From: Syntrophomonadaceae bacterium
GTDB lineage: Bacteria > Bacillota > Dethiobacteria > DTU022 > PWGO01
Assembly (NCBI GenBank): GCA_003550565.1
Contig: PUKQ01000188.1
Coordinates: 1 to 46,607, forward strand
Length of the DNA: 46,607 bases
Direction of reading: 5' to 3'
Positions within the stretch are counted from its first letter, which is position 1. Each line of letters starts with the position of its first letter. A model generated the notes under the pieces. That model ran no database searches. It worked only from the letters and a program-made list of their open reading frames with translations, and was not told the DNA's origin. A program made the position numbers and the translations under genes. Of this stretch, positions 1,465 to 13,495 are shown piece by piece.

Positions 1465-2343
1465 TTGAAAGGATTTATCTTTAATATGACGATAATATTG
1501 ACTATTTTATTCATGGGATTGATGGGTTGCGAGACCGGACCAGTTCCGGAAGCCGAACCGGAAACAGAACTTCATCAAGAAGTAATTGAAATAACTTTGG
1601 CCACTACTACCAGCACCTATGATTCAGGATTGTTGCATGAGATATTACCGGAGTTTGAAGAAGCACATAATATTGAAGTAAATATTATTTCCGTGGGAAC
1701 CGGGCAGGCTATAGAAACCGGAAAAAGAGGGGATTGCGATATTATTTTAGTGCATGCCCGGGATTTGGAAGAGCAGTTTGTAGAAGACGGTTATGGGACG
1801 GAACGATTTGATGTGATGTATAACGACTTTGTATTAGTAGGGCCGGAAGGGGATCCCGGCAACGTATATGACAGTGCCGACATCAATGAAGCCCTGGATA
1901 ATATTGTGGATCACGCCGCAAAAGAGGGATTTCCTTTCCTGTCTCGCGGAGACGATTCCGGCACTCATACAAAAGAAATGAATTTGTGGGAAGTTGCCGG
2001 TTATGATCAAGTCACTGAAGAAGAATGGTATGATTCCATGGGGCAGGGCATGGGAGATACTCTGGTTGCCTGCAATGAAAGAGAGGGCTATGTTCTGGCA
2101 GATCGGGGCACTTTCCTTTCCATGGAAGATAAGTTACCAAACCTGGAAATTGTTTTTGAAGAGGACGATGAGTTAACCAATCCTTATGGCATCATACCCG
2201 TGAATCCTGACGAGCATACCCATGTCAAGTATGAAGAAGCTCAGCTTATAGTAGAATTCTTCACTTCTGAAGAAACACAGCAGAAAATTAGCGAGTATGG
2301 CATAGATGAATACGGAGAGCCTTTATTTTTTCCTGACGCTTAA
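1465..2343 (+). CDS. tupA: Tungstate ABC transporter substrate-binding lipoprotein
   Basis: Lipobox-like 'LMGLMGC', TupA motif 'TTTSTYDSGLL', 'SRGDDSGTH'; RBS AGGAGG before TTG start; followed by permease and ATPase. Confidence 0.92.
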   Translation: MKGFIFNMTIILTILFMGLMGCETGPVPEAEPETELHQEVIEITLATTTSTYDSGLLHEILPEFEEAHNIEVNIISVGTGQAIETGKRGDCDIILVHARDLEEQFVEDGYGTERFDVMYNDFVLVGPEGDPGNVYDSADINEALDNIVDHAAKEGFPFLSRGDDSGTHTKEMNLWEVAGYDQVTEEEWYDSMGQGMGDTLVACNEREGYVLADRGTFLSMEDKLPNLEIVFEEDDELTNPYGIIPVNPDEHTHVKYEEAQLIVEFFTSEETQQKISEYGIDEYGEPLFFPDA

Positions 2344-2404
2344 TAATATAGGAAAAGAAATGTTATTTTAACTATTTAAATAGACGGGTATAGGAGAAAA
2401 AGTA

Positions 2405-3100
2405 ATGGGAGATGGATTAACGGAATCAATAAGACTATTATTAGAATTCGACCCGTATGTTTATAATATTATAGGGGTCTCCCTACGAGTTGCCGGGTTG
2501 GCTCTGCTTTTTAGCACCTTAATCGGCATCCCGTTGGGGGCCTTACTGGGCTTGACTAATTTTCGGGGAAAACCAATTGTTACCGCTTTATTGTATACGG
2601 GAATGGGATTTCCGCCGGTAGTTGTGGGTTTGATTGTATTTATCATGTTTTCTTCGATGGGCCCTATGGGATATTTAGGGTGGTTGTTTAATGTTGAAGC
2701 TATCGTAGCAGCCCAGACGATTATTGCATTTCCCTTAATTGCAGGTTTTACCATGGCGGCTGTCATGCAGGTAGATCGTAATCTTATGAGCCAGCTAATA
2801 GCCCTGGGTGCTACCAAGATACAGGCGGCATGGGCTGCCATCAAGGAGGCCAGGGTGGGTGTTATTGTGGCCATAATCGCGGGTTTTGGCGGAGTTATTT
2901 CTGAAGTGGGAGCGGTGATGCTGGTTGGGGGAAATATAGAGGGCAAAACCAGGGTTTTAACTACAGCTATAGTTTTGGAAACCAGGAAGGGAAACTTTGG
3001 GGTGGCCATAGCCTTTGGTATTATTCTCTTGGCCATTGCCTTTATCGCCAACCTGTCCATGATTTATTTACAGAAAAAGCACTTGTTCGAGGATAATTAA
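2405..3100 (+). CDS. tupB: Tungstate ABC transporter permease
   Basis: Hydrophobic permease with EAA-loop-like 'ALGATKIQAAWAAIKEAR'; between tupA and tupC. Confidence 0.9.
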   Translation: MGDGLTESIRLLLEFDPYVYNIIGVSLRVAGLALLFSTLIGIPLGALLGLTNFRGKPIVTALLYTGMGFPPVVVGLIVFIMFSSMGPMGYLGWLFNVEAIVAAQTIIAFPLIAGFTMAAVMQVDRNLMSQLIALGATKIQAAWAAIKEARVGVIVAIIAGFGGVISEVGAVMLVGGNIEGKTRVLTTAIVLETRKGNFGVAIAFGIILLAIAFIANLSMIYLQKKHLFEDN

Positions 3101-3159
3101 TTATAAGTATACCTACTATTAGAAATTAAATGGAGCAAGTAATTTAGGAAAGGTCTTAT

Positions 3160-3894
3160 ATGAGGCAAGAAATGAGTTTCCATATAGAGAATTTGCGCAA
3201 AAGCTATCCCGGATTTTCATTAAAGATTGACAAATTAAATCTTTATGAAGGGGAAATATTTTGTTTGCTGGGGCCAAGTGGCGCAGGTAAAACTACTCTG
3301 CTGCGGCTTTTAAATTTTTTGGAAGATCCCGATGAGGGACAGGTTTTTTATCGCGGCCAAGAATATACTTCCGGTAATTATCAGCCCCCGCTGGGGATGA
3401 TGAGGGAGATAACTACGGTATTTCAAAGGCCAGCCTTGTTGAAGGCAAATGTTTGGAGCAATATAGTCTATCCTTTAAAGATTCGGAATATGCAAGTTGA
3501 TCAAAGAAGTATTATGGAAATGCTAAAGGAACTGGGAATAGATAATTTGCTTAAACAAAAGAGTAAAACACTCTCAGGTGGTGAAGCCCAGCGAGTGGCA
3601 TTGGCCAGGGCGTTGGTGTTTAATCCCCGGGTACTTTTGATGGATGAACCTACAGCCAATTTGGATCCCCACAATATTAAAATAATAGAAAATATGGTAA
3701 CCAAGTACAGCCAAGAATGGAAGCCCACAGTGGTTTGGATTACCCATAATCATTTTCAAGCCAAACGAGTGGGGCACCGCATTTGCCTCATGGAAGACGG
3801 AGACATTCTTGAGGTTAATAATAAGGAAACTTTTTTTAATCAGCCGGAACACCCCAAAACCAGGGCTTTCCTTTCCGGCGAGATGTTTTACTAA
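3160..3894 (+). CDS. tupC: Tungstate ABC transporter ATP-binding protein
   Basis: Walker A 'GPSGAGKTT', signature 'LSGGEAQRVALARAL', Walker B 'LLMDEPTANLD'. Confidence 0.9.
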   Translation: MRQEMSFHIENLRKSYPGFSLKIDKLNLYEGEIFCLLGPSGAGKTTLLRLLNFLEDPDEGQVFYRGQEYTSGNYQPPLGMMREITTVFQRPALLKANVWSNIVYPLKIRNMQVDQRSIMEMLKELGIDNLLKQKSKTLSGGEAQRVALARALVFNPRVLLMDEPTANLDPHNIKIIENMVTKYSQEWKPTVVWITHNHFQAKRVGHRICLMEDGDILEVNNKETFFNQPEHPKTRAFLSGEMFY

Positions 3895-3997: not shown

Positions 3998-6900
3998 TTA
4001 AGAATACTGGGTTCTGTTAATTACATGCCATTTCATATCGTCGGAAAGATTGTGAAAGTATTCACAGTAACCGGCTATGCGGATAAGAAGGTCCGGGTAT
4101 TTTTCCGGGTTTTCGTATGCATCCAGCAGCATTTCCCTGTTTACTACATTAGGCTGCAGTTGCATCCCTCCACTTTTAAAAAATGTTTTCAATATGTTCA
4201 TCAGGTTTTTCTTGCCTTCTTCTCCCGGAAATAAGGAAGAATCGATAGTAAGGGTTGCCGTGGTGCCGTTTTCGGCATGTTCGGCAAAGTCGATACCGGC
4301 TATGGAATTGAGCGCCGATAAAAGGTCTGACTGTTCTTTTCCGTAGTGGGGGGTAATGCTGTTGGCAAAAGGAACGCCTTTTAACCTTCCCGAAGGCAGT
4401 GCCGGTGAATTTTTGCCGAACATATTGGCCAGGTTTAAAGCGTAATATCCGGCTGAATACCGACCGTTTCGCGGATCACTTCCCGCTGAATCCAGCGCAT
4501 TGTTATACATCTCCAGAACTTTGTTTACCCACTGGGTAGCCTTGTTGGAGTGATCGTCCCCGAATTTGGGAACTGCCCGCAAGGCTTCTCTTATTTGCTG
4601 GTTTTCTTCACCCTCGAAGTTGTCATCTATGGCCTTAATAACGTCGTTGACGGAGTAGAGATTGTTTTTGAAAACAACTTCCTCAATAGCGTGGAAGGAA
4701 TCTGCCACATCTGTAACAGCTATGGCCTGGATGCCGCTGCTGTTGATGGTGGTTCCTCCTTCGAGAATATCCTTGCCGCTTTCAATGCACCCTCTGTAAA
4801 GAGCAGAGCTCAGGGGGGTAGGAAAGTTTTCCCGGAGTGATTCTTCCATTTTATGATGATCGGCCAGAATTGATTTTGCCAAATGGTTTAAACGTTCCTG
4901 GAAGCGTTCAAGCAACTCATCCATGCTGGAAGGCGGCTGGTAATTATAAATCCCTTTTTCCATGTTGTTTTTTTCGCGGAGTTTGGTAGATCTCTGGTTG
5001 ACCAGGCGGTTAATACTGGCCCTTTCCCTGGAAACATGATGGGCGAAATTCGTGGCGAGTTTCAGTCTGGATTCCCGGCGCTCAAAATTCCACAAATCAT
5101 GGGTTTGGCCTTTGAGAGCTTGCAAAAAAGGCATGGCCAGGTTTATGTTAGAGCAGTCGGTATTGCCAAAATGATCGTCGGATGCCACCGGTTCCACACA
5201 TCCTACAATGGAATAATTTCTAGCATCCTCAATGGTAGTATGATAATGCCTGAGTAATGACTCTATGTATACTTCATCACAGAATATTTGGGGAAGGGGG
5301 CATCCGCTGAGATAAACCTCAGCAAGCCTTTCCAGGTATTTGTCGGGGCTGTTTTCATGGATACGGGCTGCCGGGTCGGCTGACCGGGGTTGTAGCTCGC
5401 AAATATCTATGAGCATGTAAGTGATATCGTTGGTGGCGTCTGCACCGTTTTTGTCCACTCCGCCGAAAGTATAAGCCTGGTCGGTGGATATAGTTTCAAA
5501 AAGCCGGAAAAGCTCCGGGAAATTGTCCCCGTTGTTGACCAAAACAAGTTCGTCCATTTTGAGAATGAATAAGCTGAGAAGCTCTTTGGCTTTTTCATAG
5601 GTGATTCTTCCTTCTTGAATGTCTTCTTTATAATACGGATATAGTATTTGATCAATCCGCCCAAAAGATATGGCATTTTCGTAAGATTCCAGGCAAAGGG
5701 CTATATGCAAAAACAGCATGCTTTGCAGGGCTTCATGAAAGGTGCGGGCGGGATAACGGGGGACATGTTCGCATATCTCGGCTAATTCTTCCAGTTCCTG
5801 GCGCCTCTGAGAATCGCTTTCTTCTGTGCTTAAAGCCCACAGATGCTCGGCATATTTTTGGCCGAACTGTTCTAGGCCTTCAAGGGCAATAATAGCGCCG
5901 TCATAAAAATTGTGAGTGTTTTCGGGCATCTCTTTTTTCTTTTCTTCTATTTCTTCAATCATGCCGGAAGTTCCCAAACTCAAGATACGGTCGAAGTTTA
6001 CAATATAGTGACCGATGGCCAGAATATTAAAATTCATGCCGATATTCCATTCCGTTGTCCGGGCTGCCAGTAAACCCAATTGGGCCAGATCCGGCCACAA
6101 TTTGCTAACCTGGCTATGGTGGATCCAGTAAGGGGCAACTTCTTTGAGGAAAGTAAAGTAGTCTTTAAGTGAGCTCTGAAATGCCACCGGCTTCCGATTG
6201 TTGGCTTTTAATACCTGCATTACGCTGCCGGCGGATATATACTCAGGCCAAGTTCTTCCGCCCACCCTGCTGGAAGTAAAGTTGCCTACGAGCAATTCCC
6301 GGGGATAAATTTTGGTTTCTTTGTTCTTTAATACATGGGCGAGGCATTCTGCCCTGTGAATTGGCCCGGGTTTGGCAAATTCTCCATCTTTATAAGGTTT
6401 TTTAAAGCCATAATTCTTGTAATACTCTGTGCGCAGCCTGGCGTCCTCGATGCAAACGGCAGGTTTGGTATTTTTGATAGTTTCGTCTATTTCTTTAACG
6501 CGTTCGGTAAATTCGGCTTTGGGTGGAGGGGAATCTATATAGGTGCTTTCTGCTTTGATACCGTACTTTTGGAAAAGCTTGATGCCTTCTTCCAAGGATG
6601 CCTGGCTTTGCTCCATGGTAATATTTAGTGGTTCATATTCCAGGCCGAGGCGTACGGCTTTATCTTCGTATAAATTATGGTATTTGAGTAATTCAATGGA
6701 ATTATAACCGATTGATTTTAGAAATTCAGAAGTGGCGCGGATATTGTTTTCCCCATCAGTATATCCAGGGATCATTACCATCCGGAATTTGACTTCAGCA
6801 TCCAAATCTAACAGCTTTCTGATGTTGTCGTGGATCAATGAAGGATCCCGTTTGGTGTATTGCATATGGAGTTCTTCATTGCCAACTACCTTTAAATCTA

Positions 6901-7318
6901 CAAGAAAGAGATCGATGTAAGGGGCGGCTTCGTTGATAACTTCCCAGGGAGCGTGAAATGAAGATTCTACAGCAACTTTTATATTTTCCTGTTTTAACGC
7001 CTTCAATAGATTGAGAAGGTTTTCAGAGTCCTGGAGAAAAGGTTCTCCACCACTAAGAGTTACTCCCCCGTTGGAGGAAAAATAATAATTTTTATCCCGC
7101 AGGACCACATCCAGCATATCTTCTATTGTATAGTTGTTTTGAGAGTTGGTTTGCTTCTTAAACGCCAGACCTTCTGGATTTTGACACCATAAACACCTTA
7201 AATTGCATCCTTGGAAGAAAATTGTGGTCCTAATTCCCGGGCCATCGTGTACACAAGTACGCTGGATATCAAAGACTTGCAAACTTTTGGCTATTGTTGT
7301 CAAATTCATCACCGTCAT
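3998..7318 (-). CDS. Fusion: N-terminal glycyl radical enzyme activase (radical SAM) + C-terminal glycyl radical enzyme (pyruvate formate-lyase-like; Cys-x-Glu eliminase/lyase type, substrate unknown)
   Basis: Residues ~1-259: 'GCNLRCLWCQNPEG' (CxxxCxxC), 'TLSGGEPFLQ'. Residues ~268-1106: GRE N-term pattern 'FTERVKEIDETIKNTKPAVCIEDARLRTEYYK', active-site 'VGCVEP' (Cys707/Glu709), glycyl motif 'RIAGYCEYF' (Gly1083, codon 4070-4072). One continuous reading frame. Confidence 0.93.
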   Translation of the reverse strand: MTVMNLTTIAKSLQVFDIQRTCVHDGPGIRTTIFFQGCNLRCLWCQNPEGLAFKKQTNSQNNYTIEDMLDVVLRDKNYYFSSNGGVTLSGGEPFLQDSENLLNLLKALKQENIKVAVESSFHAPWEVINEAAPYIDLFLVDLKVVGNEELHMQYTKRDPSLIHDNIRKLLDLDAEVKFRMVMIPGYTDGENNIRATSEFLKSIGYNSIELLKYHNLYEDKAVRLGLEYEPLNITMEQSQASLEEGIKLFQKYGIKAESTYIDSPPPKAEFTERVKEIDETIKNTKPAVCIEDARLRTEYYKNYGFKKPYKDGEFAKPGPIHRAECLAHVLKNKETKIYPRELLVGNFTSSRVGGRTWPEYISAGSVMQVLKANNRKPVAFQSSLKDYFTFLKEVAPYWIHHSQVSKLWPDLAQLGLLAARTTEWNIGMNFNILAIGHYIVNFDRILSLGTSGMIEEIEEKKKEMPENTHNFYDGAIIALEGLEQFGQKYAEHLWALSTEESDSQRRQELEELAEICEHVPRYPARTFHEALQSMLFLHIALCLESYENAISFGRIDQILYPYYKEDIQEGRITYEKAKELLSLFILKMDELVLVNNGDNFPELFRLFETISTDQAYTFGGVDKNGADATNDITYMLIDICELQPRSADPAARIHENSPDKYLERLAEVYLSGCPLPQIFCDEVYIESLLRHYHTTIEDARNYSIVGCVEPVASDDHFGNTDCSNINLAMPFLQALKGQTHDLWNFERRESRLKLATNFAHHVSRERASINRLVNQRSTKLREKNNMEKGIYNYQPPSSMDELLERFQERLNHLAKSILADHHKMEESLRENFPTPLSSALYRGCIESGKDILEGGTTINSSGIQAIAVTDVADSFHAIEEVVFKNNLYSVNDVIKAIDDNFEGEENQQIREALRAVPKFGDDHSNKATQWVNKVLEMYNNALDSAGSDPRNGRYSAGYYALNLANMFGKNSPALPSGRLKGVPFANSITPHYGKEQSDLLSALNSIAGIDFAEHAENGTTATLTIDSSLFPGEEGKKNLMNILKTFFKSGGMQLQPNVVNREMLLDAYENPEKYPDLLIRIAGYCEYFHNLSDDMKWHVINRTQYS

Positions 7319-10310: not shown

Positions 10311-12497
10311 ATGAAAATAGGAATCCCCAGAGCAATGGGGTATTATTACTATTATCCCTTTTATCGTAAATTTTTAGAATATTTGGATGTGGAGCCGGTA
10401 ATTTCTTCTCCCACCAGTAGAAAAACTCTTGATTCATTAACAGATTGCCCCACAGATGAACCATGCATCTCTGTGAAACTAACTTTTCCTCATGTGAGGC
10501 AGTTATTGGAAAAAGAGGTAGATGGCATATTTTTGCCTGTGTTGGTAAGCGGGAGGAAAGATAGCTACTTTTGCCCGAAACACATAGGACTGCCGGCCAT
10601 GGTGAAAAACAATTTCAATTTAACCGATGATATGTTTTTATCCCCCAAATTTGATATCCATCATACTACCGATAAAGGCCGTTCTTCTTTTGTTAGGGAA
10701 GCTAAAAAAATTGGAGCAGATTCTAGAAAGGCGCGCCGGGCTTTTAATGCTGCATGGGAGAAACAAAAAGAATTTATTTACCTCACCTACTCCAGGCAAA
10801 TCACTACCCCCGAAGCATTCACTTTATTGGAAGGGAAAGAAATTAATTCACCGCTCGGCAAAGAAGGGGGAATTAATATTGGCATAGTGGCCCACAGCTA
10901 TACTTTATATGATTATATCGGCTATAACCTGGTAGATCGCCTGCGTGAATACGGAAATGTTTACACTCCGGAAATGATTTCACCGGAAGAAGCTGTTCAC
11001 CAGGTTGAAGATTCTATTTATGATGGAGAAAAACTGTGGAGTTTTGAAATACAGTTAGTAGGTAGTGCTCTTTACTGGCTGCGTAATGGCATGGTAGATA
11101 AATTAATTATGCTGGGGCCGTTTGAATGCGGGCCGGAAGCAATAATAGAAAACTTTTTGGAAGAAAAATGTAATGAGATGAATGTCCCCTTTCTTATTCT
11201 AACCGTGGATGAACAGACCGGTGAAGCGGGCCTTATGACCCGTATAGAGGCTTTTATGGATACTGTTCCGGTAATTGAGAGTCCAGAAGGCACAAATGAG
11301 AAAGGCGGGGAAAAAGACCTTTCATGGTCGGCGAATAAAAATAAACAAATTCATGTTCCTACATTTGATAAAAGGGTAGTAGGTTTACCTACAATGGGCA
11401 ATTTGGGAGTTATATTATCTACTATCTTCAAAGAACTGGATATCGAAACAGTGATTCCTCCCATTACAAATAGGACCGTGGAGTTAGGTATGGAAGTAGC
11501 TCCGGAATTCATATGTTTTCCCATGACAGTTACTATCGGGCAGATGAGGGAAGCATTAGAACAGGGGGCGAACACGATTGCCATGGTTACCGGAAAAGGT
11601 AGATGCCGTTTGGGATGGTACGCTGATATTCAAGAAATACTTCTTAATAAGTTGGGCTATCAATTTGAAATGGTGGCTATAGACAATCCTTTTCCGGTTT
11701 TTAAGAAGGGGAGGCAGTTTTTAAAAACCCTGCAATTAATTACAGCAGAAGGCGCTTCCTGGCCTAAAATTTCCCGAGCCTTTGTCAGGGGTTATAGACG
11801 ATTGATAGCATTGGATGCGGCGGAAAACGAACTTTTTTATTATAGGGCTATTGAGAAGAACAGGGGAGAAGCAGATAGGTTATTTAATAATTTTAGCCGA
11901 CGCCTTTTGCAGTTAGAAACAATAGGAGAATTTGAAGCTGCTTACAAAAATTATCTGGAAGAATTAAATAAATTAGAAAGAGTAGAAAATGAGGAAATTT
12001 ACCGGGTAAGAATTATCGGGGAAATATATGCAGTCCAAGAAAAATTTGTTAACCTTGATCTCATAGAAAGGCTGGGAAAATATCCATCCCAGAGAATATG
12101 GGTGGAACGTGAACTTAACACCAGCAACTGGTTCCGTTTGAAAGTGCTTAATGACAAAAAACTCAGAGAAAGGCACAGCGAGATTGAAGAAGCAGCTGCT
12201 CCTTACCTGGATGAGATGGTAGGGGGGCACGGACAAGAGAATGTAGGGCTTACGGTGCTGGCGCCTCAAGAGGGAATTGATGGCATTATACATTTATTTC
12301 CTTTTACTTGTATGCCGGAGATTGTAGCTCAAAACATATTAACCCGTGTGACTGAGGAAAAAGATATACCTATTTTAACAATTATTACTAACGAACAAAC
12401 CGGCGAAGCAGGCGTTCAAACCAGATTAGAGGCTTTTCTGGATATAATGAAAGATAAAAAAAGAAAACAAAAAAAGGAGAGTGGAATACTCTTATGA
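10311..12497 (+). CDS. Tandem-duplicated DUF2229/HgdB-like CoA-enzyme activase-associated protein (two fused modules)
   Basis: 'MKIGIPRAMGYYYYYPFYRKFLEYLDVEPVISSPTS' and 'VVGLPTMGNLGVILSTIFKELDIETVIPPITNR' begin two homologous modules; each ends in 'EQTGEAG(L/V)xTR(I/L)EAF(M/L)D'. Confidence 0.8.
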   Translation: MKIGIPRAMGYYYYYPFYRKFLEYLDVEPVISSPTSRKTLDSLTDCPTDEPCISVKLTFPHVRQLLEKEVDGIFLPVLVSGRKDSYFCPKHIGLPAMVKNNFNLTDDMFLSPKFDIHHTTDKGRSSFVREAKKIGADSRKARRAFNAAWEKQKEFIYLTYSRQITTPEAFTLLEGKEINSPLGKEGGINIGIVAHSYTLYDYIGYNLVDRLREYGNVYTPEMISPEEAVHQVEDSIYDGEKLWSFEIQLVGSALYWLRNGMVDKLIMLGPFECGPEAIIENFLEEKCNEMNVPFLILTVDEQTGEAGLMTRIEAFMDTVPVIESPEGTNEKGGEKDLSWSANKNKQIHVPTFDKRVVGLPTMGNLGVILSTIFKELDIETVIPPITNRTVELGMEVAPEFICFPMTVTIGQMREALEQGANTIAMVTGKGRCRLGWYADIQEILLNKLGYQFEMVAIDNPFPVFKKGRQFLKTLQLITAEGASWPKISRAFVRGYRRLIALDAAENELFYYRAIEKNRGEADRLFNNFSRRLLQLETIGEFEAAYKNYLEELNKLERVENEEIYRVRIIGEIYAVQEKFVNLDLIERLGKYPSQRIWVERELNTSNWFRLKVLNDKKLRERHSEIEEAAAPYLDEMVGGHGQENVGLTVLAPQEGIDGIIHLFPFTCMPEIVAQNILTRVTEEKDIPILTIITNEQTGEAGVQTRLEAFLDIMKDKKRKQKKESGILL

Positions 12498-13495
12498 GAG
12501 CTTATATTGGTGTAGATGTTGGCAGTTTAACCACTAAAATTGTAGCCCTGGATGAAAATGGGGAAGCTTTATTTGATTGGTATGCCCGAAACCAGGGGGG
12601 GCCAATTGAAACTGTCCAGCAAGGTTTTCGTAAATTAGAAAGTGAACCTCTTAAAGATATAGATATAGGGGGCATAGGGACTACCGGTTCCGGTAGGCAT
12701 TTAGCGGCCATAATGGTCGGCGCGGATATAATAAAAAACGAAATTACCGCTCATGCAGTTGCTGCCAGCCACGTAAACCCGGGGGTTCGCACTGTTATTG
12801 ATATCGGAGGTCAAGATTCCAAAATCATATATTTAAAAAAAGGAGTAGCCGTAGGTTTTAACATGAATACTATCTGTGCTGCCGGAACAGGCTCTTTTCT
12901 TGATCACCAGGCTTCTCGGCTAAATATACCCATTGAGGAATTTGGCGAATATGCTCTTAAGTCTGATAATTCCGTGCGTATTTCCGGCCGCTGTGGAGTC
13001 TTTGCAGAATCTGATCTCATACATAAGCAGCAAATGGGTTATAATCGGGAAGATCTCGTTGCCGGGCTTTGTATGGCTTTAGCCAGAAATTTTGTTACTA
13101 ATGTGGCCCGTTCCAAGAAAGTAGAACCGGAAATTCTCTTTCAAGGAGGCGTTGCTGCCAACCTGGGTATTAAGTATGCTTTAGAGGTTATTTTAAATAA
13201 GGAACTCATAATACCTGACAAGTTTAAAGTGATGGGGGCTTATGGTGCTGCTCTTTTAGCTTTGCGGGAAAAGCAAAATACTAACGAACTTTCAAAATAC
13301 CGCGGCGCTCATGCAATAGCTTCCTTTGATTGTTATCCCCGGAGTTTTATTTGCGATGATTGCAGCAACAGTTGCGAAATTAACGAACTCTACATTGACG
13401 AAAAACTTGTAAGCAGATGGGGGAGTCGTTGCGCCAAGTGGGAAGACCTTAACTACCACAAGAAAGAAAAAACAAAAAGCCAGGCAACCTTTTAA
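12494..13495 (+). CDS. BadF/BadG/HgdC-type CoA-substrate-specific enzyme activase (ASKHA ATPase) with Cys-rich C-terminus
   Basis: 'YIGVDVGSLTTKIVALDENG', 'DIGGQDSKIIYL', 'NTICAAGTGSFLDHQASRLNI'; ATGA overlap with upstream ORF; tail 'CYPRSFICDDCSNSCEI...GSRCAKW'. Confidence 0.9.
   Translation: MRAYIGVDVGSLTTKIVALDENGEALFDWYARNQGGPIETVQQGFRKLESEPLKDIDIGGIGTTGSGRHLAAIMVGADIIKNEITAHAVAASHVNPGVRTVIDIGGQDSKIIYLKKGVAVGFNMNTICAAGTGSFLDHQASRLNIPIEEFGEYALKSDNSVRISGRCGVFAESDLIHKQQMGYNREDLVAGLCMALARNFVTNVARSKKVEPEILFQGGVAANLGIKYALEVILNKELIIPDKFKVMGAYGAALLALREKQNTNELSKYRGAHAIASFDCYPRSFICDDCSNSCEINELYIDEKLVSRWGSRCAKWEDLNYHKKEKTKSQATF

Follow-up and report, generated by a model that had tools for sequence, protein, structure and literature searches.

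Does the open reading frame (ORF) at 3998..7318 of the window, the whole 46,607-nucleotide stretch of DNA analysed here, encode a glycyl radical enzyme (GRE) joined to its own radical-SAM activase, and what would such a protein do? The original prediction described a single 1106-codon ORF running from activase through linker to GRE, and both translation and Pfam bore this out. The strand, which had been left unstated, is minus: there the interval is one unbroken ATG-initiated ORF of 1106 aa, and the plus strand across it contains many stops. Pfam matched Radical_SAM at residues 33-190 (E 1.9e-16) and also Fer4_12 in the N-terminal part, followed by a PFL-like domain from residue 271 (E 1.4e-129) and Gly_radical at 985-1088 (E 9.4e-23) in the C-terminal part. 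The predicted positions of C38/C42/C45, GGEP, C707-V-E709, RIAGY with G1083 and the linker all agreed with the translation (Table 1), and these observations support a genuine activase–GRE fusion.

Table 1. Features of the fusion gene in window coordinates
Feature	Position	Strand	Evidence
Whole fusion gene: activase, linker and GRE, 1106 aa	3998..7318	-	Single ORF, Pfam, 17 further intact orthologues
Radical-SAM activase domain, residues 1-259, without ferredoxin insert	6542..7318	-	Pfam Radical_SAM; split TIGR02494 match; similarity to PFL-AE 3c8f
CxxxCxxC (C38, C42, C45), predicted [4Fe-4S]/SAM site	7184..7207	-	Translation; invariant in aligned fusions
GGEP motif, residues 90-93, predicted SAM binding	7040..7051	-	Translation; alignment
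Linker YIDSPPPKAEF, residues 260-270	6509..6541	-	Translation; start codon here not conserved
GRE domain, residues 271-1106	4001..6508	-	Pfam PFL-like and Gly_radical; Foldseek
His437, aligned with His164 of C. butyricum glycerol dehydratase	6008..6010	-	Invariant in 18 aligned fusions
Cys707-Val-Glu709, CxE Cys loop (putative thiyl radical site)	5192..5200	-	C and E invariant in 18 aligned fusions
Asp721, aligned with Asp447 of glycerol dehydratase	5156..5158	-	Invariant in 18 aligned fusions
RIAGY glycyl-radical loop	4067..4081	-	Gly1083 codon 4070-4072; Gly invariant

Together with the window, 17 further intact single-ORF orthologues of 53-66% identity, found in other Bacillota, Myxococcota and Asgard archaea (Lokiarchaeota, Sigynarchaeum), give a set of 18 intact members (window, L009, L012, L017, L018, L019, L020, L021, L022, L023, L026, L027, L028, L096, L097, L099, L103 and L113). 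A further four (L013/L024, L025, L102 and L105) are incomplete because they run into contig ends.

The GRE half and its likely chemistry

Gly1083 is invariant in the aligned fusions, and an RVAGY-type loop and the Gly_radical domain place the C-terminal half in the GRE superfamily; Pfam, the invariant C707 and a fold match likewise identify a PFL-like barrel with a catalytic Cys. The CxE motif has been reported to be conserved among GRE eliminases (PMC7077986), and the fusion carries it as C707-V-E709. The equivalents of glycerol dehydratase Cys433, Glu435, His164 and Asp447 are invariant across the 18 aligned fusions, and the constancy of Cys707, Glu709, Gly1083, His437 and Asp721 suggests an eliminase (dehydratase-type) reaction. 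We take His164, His281, Ser282, Asp447 and Glu435 to be the substrate-site set of glycerol dehydratase. This set is not retained as a whole: His164, Asp447 and Glu435 are kept, and His281/Ser282 align with Asn548/Ala549 in the window, so the substrate pocket is predicted to differ from that of glycerol dehydratase.

Family models gave no closer assignment. The window falls far under every curated NCBIfam GRE equivalog cut-off (HypD, CutC, sulfopropanediol dehydratase, indoleacetate/HPA decarboxylase and PFL), the best being HypD with 352 of 1100 bits, and it reaches 492 of 678 bits for the PFL2-3 subfamily. The reaction therefore cannot be inferred from family membership, and it is either new or, at the least, unassigned.

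An AlphaFold2 model of the whole chain, built with 31 sequences, had a pLDDT of 86.5 and a pTM of 0.88. As the GRE makes up 76% of the chain and the pTM is nevertheless this high, the activase would appear to be placed with some confidence. The best Foldseek matches of the GRE part were propanediol dehydratase, AfPFL2 and glycerol dehydratase, with TM scores (target) of 0.90-0.92 for the propanediol and glycerol dehydratases. The model agrees with closed crystal structures, which suggests that the glycine loop was modelled in the closed, catalytic state and that activation would still need its opening, a step discussed for PFL (PMC9326890). Glycerol dehydratase (1r8w) and 1,2-propanediol dehydratase (5i2g, 9rco) thus share with the fusion the fold, the CxE Cys loop, the Gly loop and the His164/Asp447 equivalents, but they are only ~27% identical to it, are served by separate activases rather than a fused, insert-free one, and have His281/Ser282 where the fusion has Asn/Ala.

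Among solved structures, Archaeoglobus fulgidus PFL2/PflD (2f3o) is the closest in sequence; it shares the CVE, His and Asp positions but is ~29% identical and has a separate activase. This match lends some weight to the idea that the GRE half catalyses another GRE reaction such as fumarate addition, as suggested for A. fulgidus PflD and Asgard relatives; Hermodarchaeota homologues similar to A. fulgidus PflD have been annotated as alkyl/benzylsuccinate synthases (PMC8163825). We consider a reaction of this kind unlikely, though the strongest of the alternatives, given the CxE motif reported for GRE eliminases (PMC7077986), the invariant His164/Asp447 equivalents and a fold closer to the eliminases than to benzylsuccinate or methylalkylsuccinate synthase.

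A compact activase and the proposed mechanism

The activase half scored 216.6 bits against TIGR02494 (GRE activases), and 224 in a second search, above the family cut-off of 174.35, and stayed under the cut-off of TIGR02493 (PFLA). Its CxxxCxxC is invariant in all aligned fusions, and GGEP is conserved in all of them except L027, which has GGDP. The match to TIGR02494 falls into two pieces, separated exactly at the site where other GRE activases carry a ferredoxin insert. This insert with two [4Fe-4S] clusters is missing from the aligned clade members, whereas L029, L041 and the fused L034 have it; the window thus lacks the ferredoxin-like insert and two extra [4Fe-4S] sites of eliminase-type activases, and because of this its activase domain is, as judged from the alignment, unlike those of its eliminase relatives. 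In its single-cluster radical-SAM architecture without the insert it resembles E. coli PFL-AE (3c8f), which aligns to window residues 23-255 but is a stand-alone protein and groups outside the fused clade in the activase tree. PFL-AE Asp16, Asn38, Lys131, Arg166 and His202 have identical counterparts in the window, and Asp104 is replaced by Glu118; we presume these six to be SAM- or glycine-loop-binding residues.

From the fusion we infer a tethered mode of activation, in which the activase domain would act on its own chain or dimer; the GRE half would carry out eliminase chemistry. The N-terminal radical-SAM domain would bind a [4Fe-4S] cluster and SAM and be reduced by a cellular electron donor. 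Reductive cleavage of SAM would then yield a 5'-deoxyadenosyl radical that takes an H atom from Gly1083 of the same chain or of the homodimer partner. The glycyl radical would give rise to a thiyl radical on Cys707, and this would start a dehydratase-like elimination on a small alcohol or diol in an active site that includes Glu709, His437 and Asp721. The radical-generation steps follow established GRE/activase biochemistry and the intact motifs. In evolutionary terms, an upstream activase gene and a downstream GRE gene would have been joined once in the clade, with loss of the ferredoxin insert, and the fused gene would then have passed as a unit between bacteria and Asgard archaea. To the joint view, a self-contained GRE with activation of its own chain or dimer, eliminase chemistry, a single fusion origin and spread between bacteria and Asgard archaea, we assign a probability of roughly 75%. 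That bacteria and Asgard archaea possess a self-activating GRE family whose tethered, insert-free radical-SAM domain radicalises its own chain or dimer we hold to be somewhat better than an even bet.

The host genome offers another role for the activase domain, which might mainly activate other GREs in trans, with the GRE it is fused to as just one of several clients. The fusion contig (C173) belongs to a 2.65-Mb metagenome-assembled genome (MAG) of 279 contigs, estimated to be 96.5% complete and 6.4% contaminated, and this genome has five other GRE loci, on contigs C260, C2, C87, C223 and C188. Only two stand-alone GRE activases exceeded the family cut-off, adjoining the GREs of C87 and C188, and no recognised activase was found beside those of C260, C2 and C223. 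This imbalance makes an extra activating role possible. As the main function it seems improbable to us: the fusion has been kept in genomes with differing GRE sets, it does not lie close to other GRE genes, and the MAG may be missing genes.

Selection and probable expression as one chain

Pairwise comparison of close members gave dN far below dS in both halves (for L009/L012, for example, dN 0.13 and dS 1.39 in the activase and dN 0.10 and dS 1.06 in the GRE), and both are thus under purifying selection. If the chain were cut or separately initiated in the cell, activase and GRE could still act as two proteins, and the linker sequence is indeed variable and some members have a start codon close to the junction. 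This internal start is not conserved among members, however, and L026, L027, L096, L097 and L099 have no ATG, GTG or TTG within -35..+45 codons of the junction, which makes a conserved second start giving a free GRE unlikely. The linker alignment likewise shows no conserved candidate protease site, and we regard two separately acting proteins as very improbable.

Orthologues and the origin of the fusion

Intact relatives of more than 50% identity are all fused, and none of the orthologues recovered was an intact clade member split at the activase/GRE junction; the two-protein arrangement in close relatives that would have spoken against the original prediction was thus not seen. That a missed stop codon or frameshift error merged two normal neighbouring genes, as a 279-contig MAG with ~6% contamination might allow, can be rejected with near certainty because the same junction recurs in the 17 further intact orthologues, from other assemblies and on contigs of up to 65 kb, in a clade without any intact split member. 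One candidate split orthologue, in the Asgard genome G589, was rejected, as L102 and L105 are hits truncated at contig ends and not split genes. A broken fusion copy in two frames was seen in a Myxococcota/Deltaproteobacteria MAG (L037:6683-8517), where the GRE middle and C-terminal part were not found; it reflects either gene decay or an assembly problem.

In the tree of the GRE part, the thirteen insert-free fusions included formed one clade with full support (UFBoot 100/SH-aLRT 100) on a long stem of 1.55, and the clade was also recovered in a quick GRE tree of 86 rows. The same thirteen and L025 formed one clade in the activase tree with a support of 99. The insert-free fusions are thus monophyletic in both halves, which answers, for this clade, the question asked at the outset. 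Characterised or split relatives all fell outside the fusion clade, at ~27-35% identity. In many of the split relatives (L010, L014, L031 and L079) the activase lies immediately 5' of the GRE, and often the two share a frame with a single stop between them. The earlier remark that the linker sits where a stop and start would usually be holds for these less related activase–GRE operons, and with such an arrangement loss of the stop codon would be a simple route to the fusion.

A second, distant activase–GRE fusion was found on a 240-kb contig of a Thermoanaerobaculia MAG (L034:8968-12252). It has the same domain order in one ORF as the window clade but is only 33-35% identical and has kept the ferredoxin insert with two [4Fe-4S] clusters; its stop-to-stop frame is longer, with 1489 codons open owing to GC-rich upstream sequence. 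L034 joined the main clade weakly in the GRE tree (61/88) and was placed elsewhere in the activase tree, and an AU test did not reject one activase clade including it (p 0.48). The window clade shows that in GRE activases loss of the insert can accompany fusion. Related long GREs (L004, L039, L045 and L047) form a clade with open frames of ~1010-1070 codons, in which an uncharacterised N-terminal extension, some 200 residues long or more, precedes the GRE part.

Distribution and gene neighbourhoods

The fusion gene is rare. It was present in 4 of 98 genomes of the window's class and 1 of 341 in the class of L026, and among 399 sampled genomes of the window's phylum it was found in the window's own genome alone. 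A whole-genome search of relatives returned a single ORF with 65% identity from a different family within the order. A scan of GTDB species genomes found full-length single-ORF fusions in Bacillota, a 'Deltaproteobacteria' (Myxococcota) MAG, Lokiarchaeota MAGs and Candidatus Sigynarchaeum. Two of the 195 Myxococcota genomes searched had the gene, one of them new, as did 7 of 228 in the Asgard phylum, where G483 and G485 each contained two intact copies. All members with titled records come from metagenome-assembled genomes. Ras-family GTPase genes next to the fusion on the Asgard contig L109 speak against simple bin contamination.

In the tree of full-length fusions, Bacillota occupied separate supported places, with well-supported branches forcing at least 3 changes, and the window's group, including one Myxococcota sequence, was nested among Asgard sequences. 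These placements point to horizontal transfer, including transfer between domains, with Asgard monophyly within the fusion clade not firmly rejected (AU p 0.077). A plasmid search returned just a Vibrio europaeus plasmid with separate GRE and activase genes at 27% identity, and a scan of viral contigs gave no relative of the fusion.

Beyond very close relatives, the fusion loci compared have no conserved neighbour genes that hint at a substrate. The neighbours include an MFS sugar symporter, RNase R, an SDR, an M28 peptidase, a phosphoglycerate dehydrogenase and a CrtI-like flavoprotein. As the neighbourhoods are not conserved, they imply no partner gene and give no reliable substrate clue, consistent with a self-contained module of one gene, which seems to move between bacteria and archaea and to function as a single unit. 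The sole adjacent pair common to fusion loci of different bacteria consists of a CrtI/carotenoid-isomerase-like flavoprotein and a PaaE-like ferredoxin reductase close to the fusion (L021:745-3469 and L025:1248-4026).

The window holds two further arrangements of note. At 76-1224, a gene joining a ModE/LysR-type helix-turn-helix to a TupA-like tungstate-binding domain lies upstream of tupA-, tupB- and ATPase-like genes (1465-3894), and its product looks like a one-protein tungstate-sensing regulator. At 10311-13495, a DUF2229/HGD-D protein of 728 aa is followed directly by a BcrAD/BadFG ATPase; this 2-hydroxyacyl-CoA-dehydratase-like protein with its own ATP-driven activase makes a second activase–enzyme pair near the fusion.

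Relation to known fusions and significance

The original prediction held that GRE and activase are separate proteins in the systems it knew. In the wider superfamily fused forms have a precedent among the class III ribonucleotide reductases, of which NrdD–NrdG fusions in one ORF are known from a few eukaryotes (PMC3019208, PMC3267527, PMC4390871). Those fusions likewise unite a glycyl radical protein and a radical-SAM activase in one ORF, and horizontal spread has been proposed for them too, but they belong to the RNR family rather than the PFL-like one and occur in fungi and oomycetes instead of bacteria and archaea (PMC3019208). The name NrdDG indicates that there the catalytic part probably comes first, whereas the activase is N-terminal in the window fusion. 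The window GRE is not an NrdD, as its Pfam assignment is PFL-like, without a match to the ribonucleotide reductase catalytic domain. The eukaryotic precedent limits the novelty: a GRE–activase fusion as such is not new, and the window type is set apart by its GRE family, domain order, hosts and compact activase. The open-access papers searched held no report of such a fusion for a GRE of the PFL or eliminase type.

The access of an activase to the buried glycine of its GRE is still an open question, and a modelling study of PFL activation concluded that the full GRE–activase complex is needed but 'not yet accessible' (PMC9326890). A natural fusion of an oxygen-sensitive radical enzyme with its activator, normally two proteins, may help to show how the enzyme is switched on. 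If our reading is correct, the protein would be a natural single-chain version of the activase–GRE complex, itself without a solved structure, and a stable fusion of this kind would provide a fixed 1:1 complex amenable to expression, cryo-EM and tests of cis versus trans activation. It would also represent a portable one-gene radical catalyst with an eliminase substrate, and such a one-gene radical enzyme would be useful for engineering and for predicting the anaerobic metabolism of Asgard archaea and of digester and sediment bacteria.
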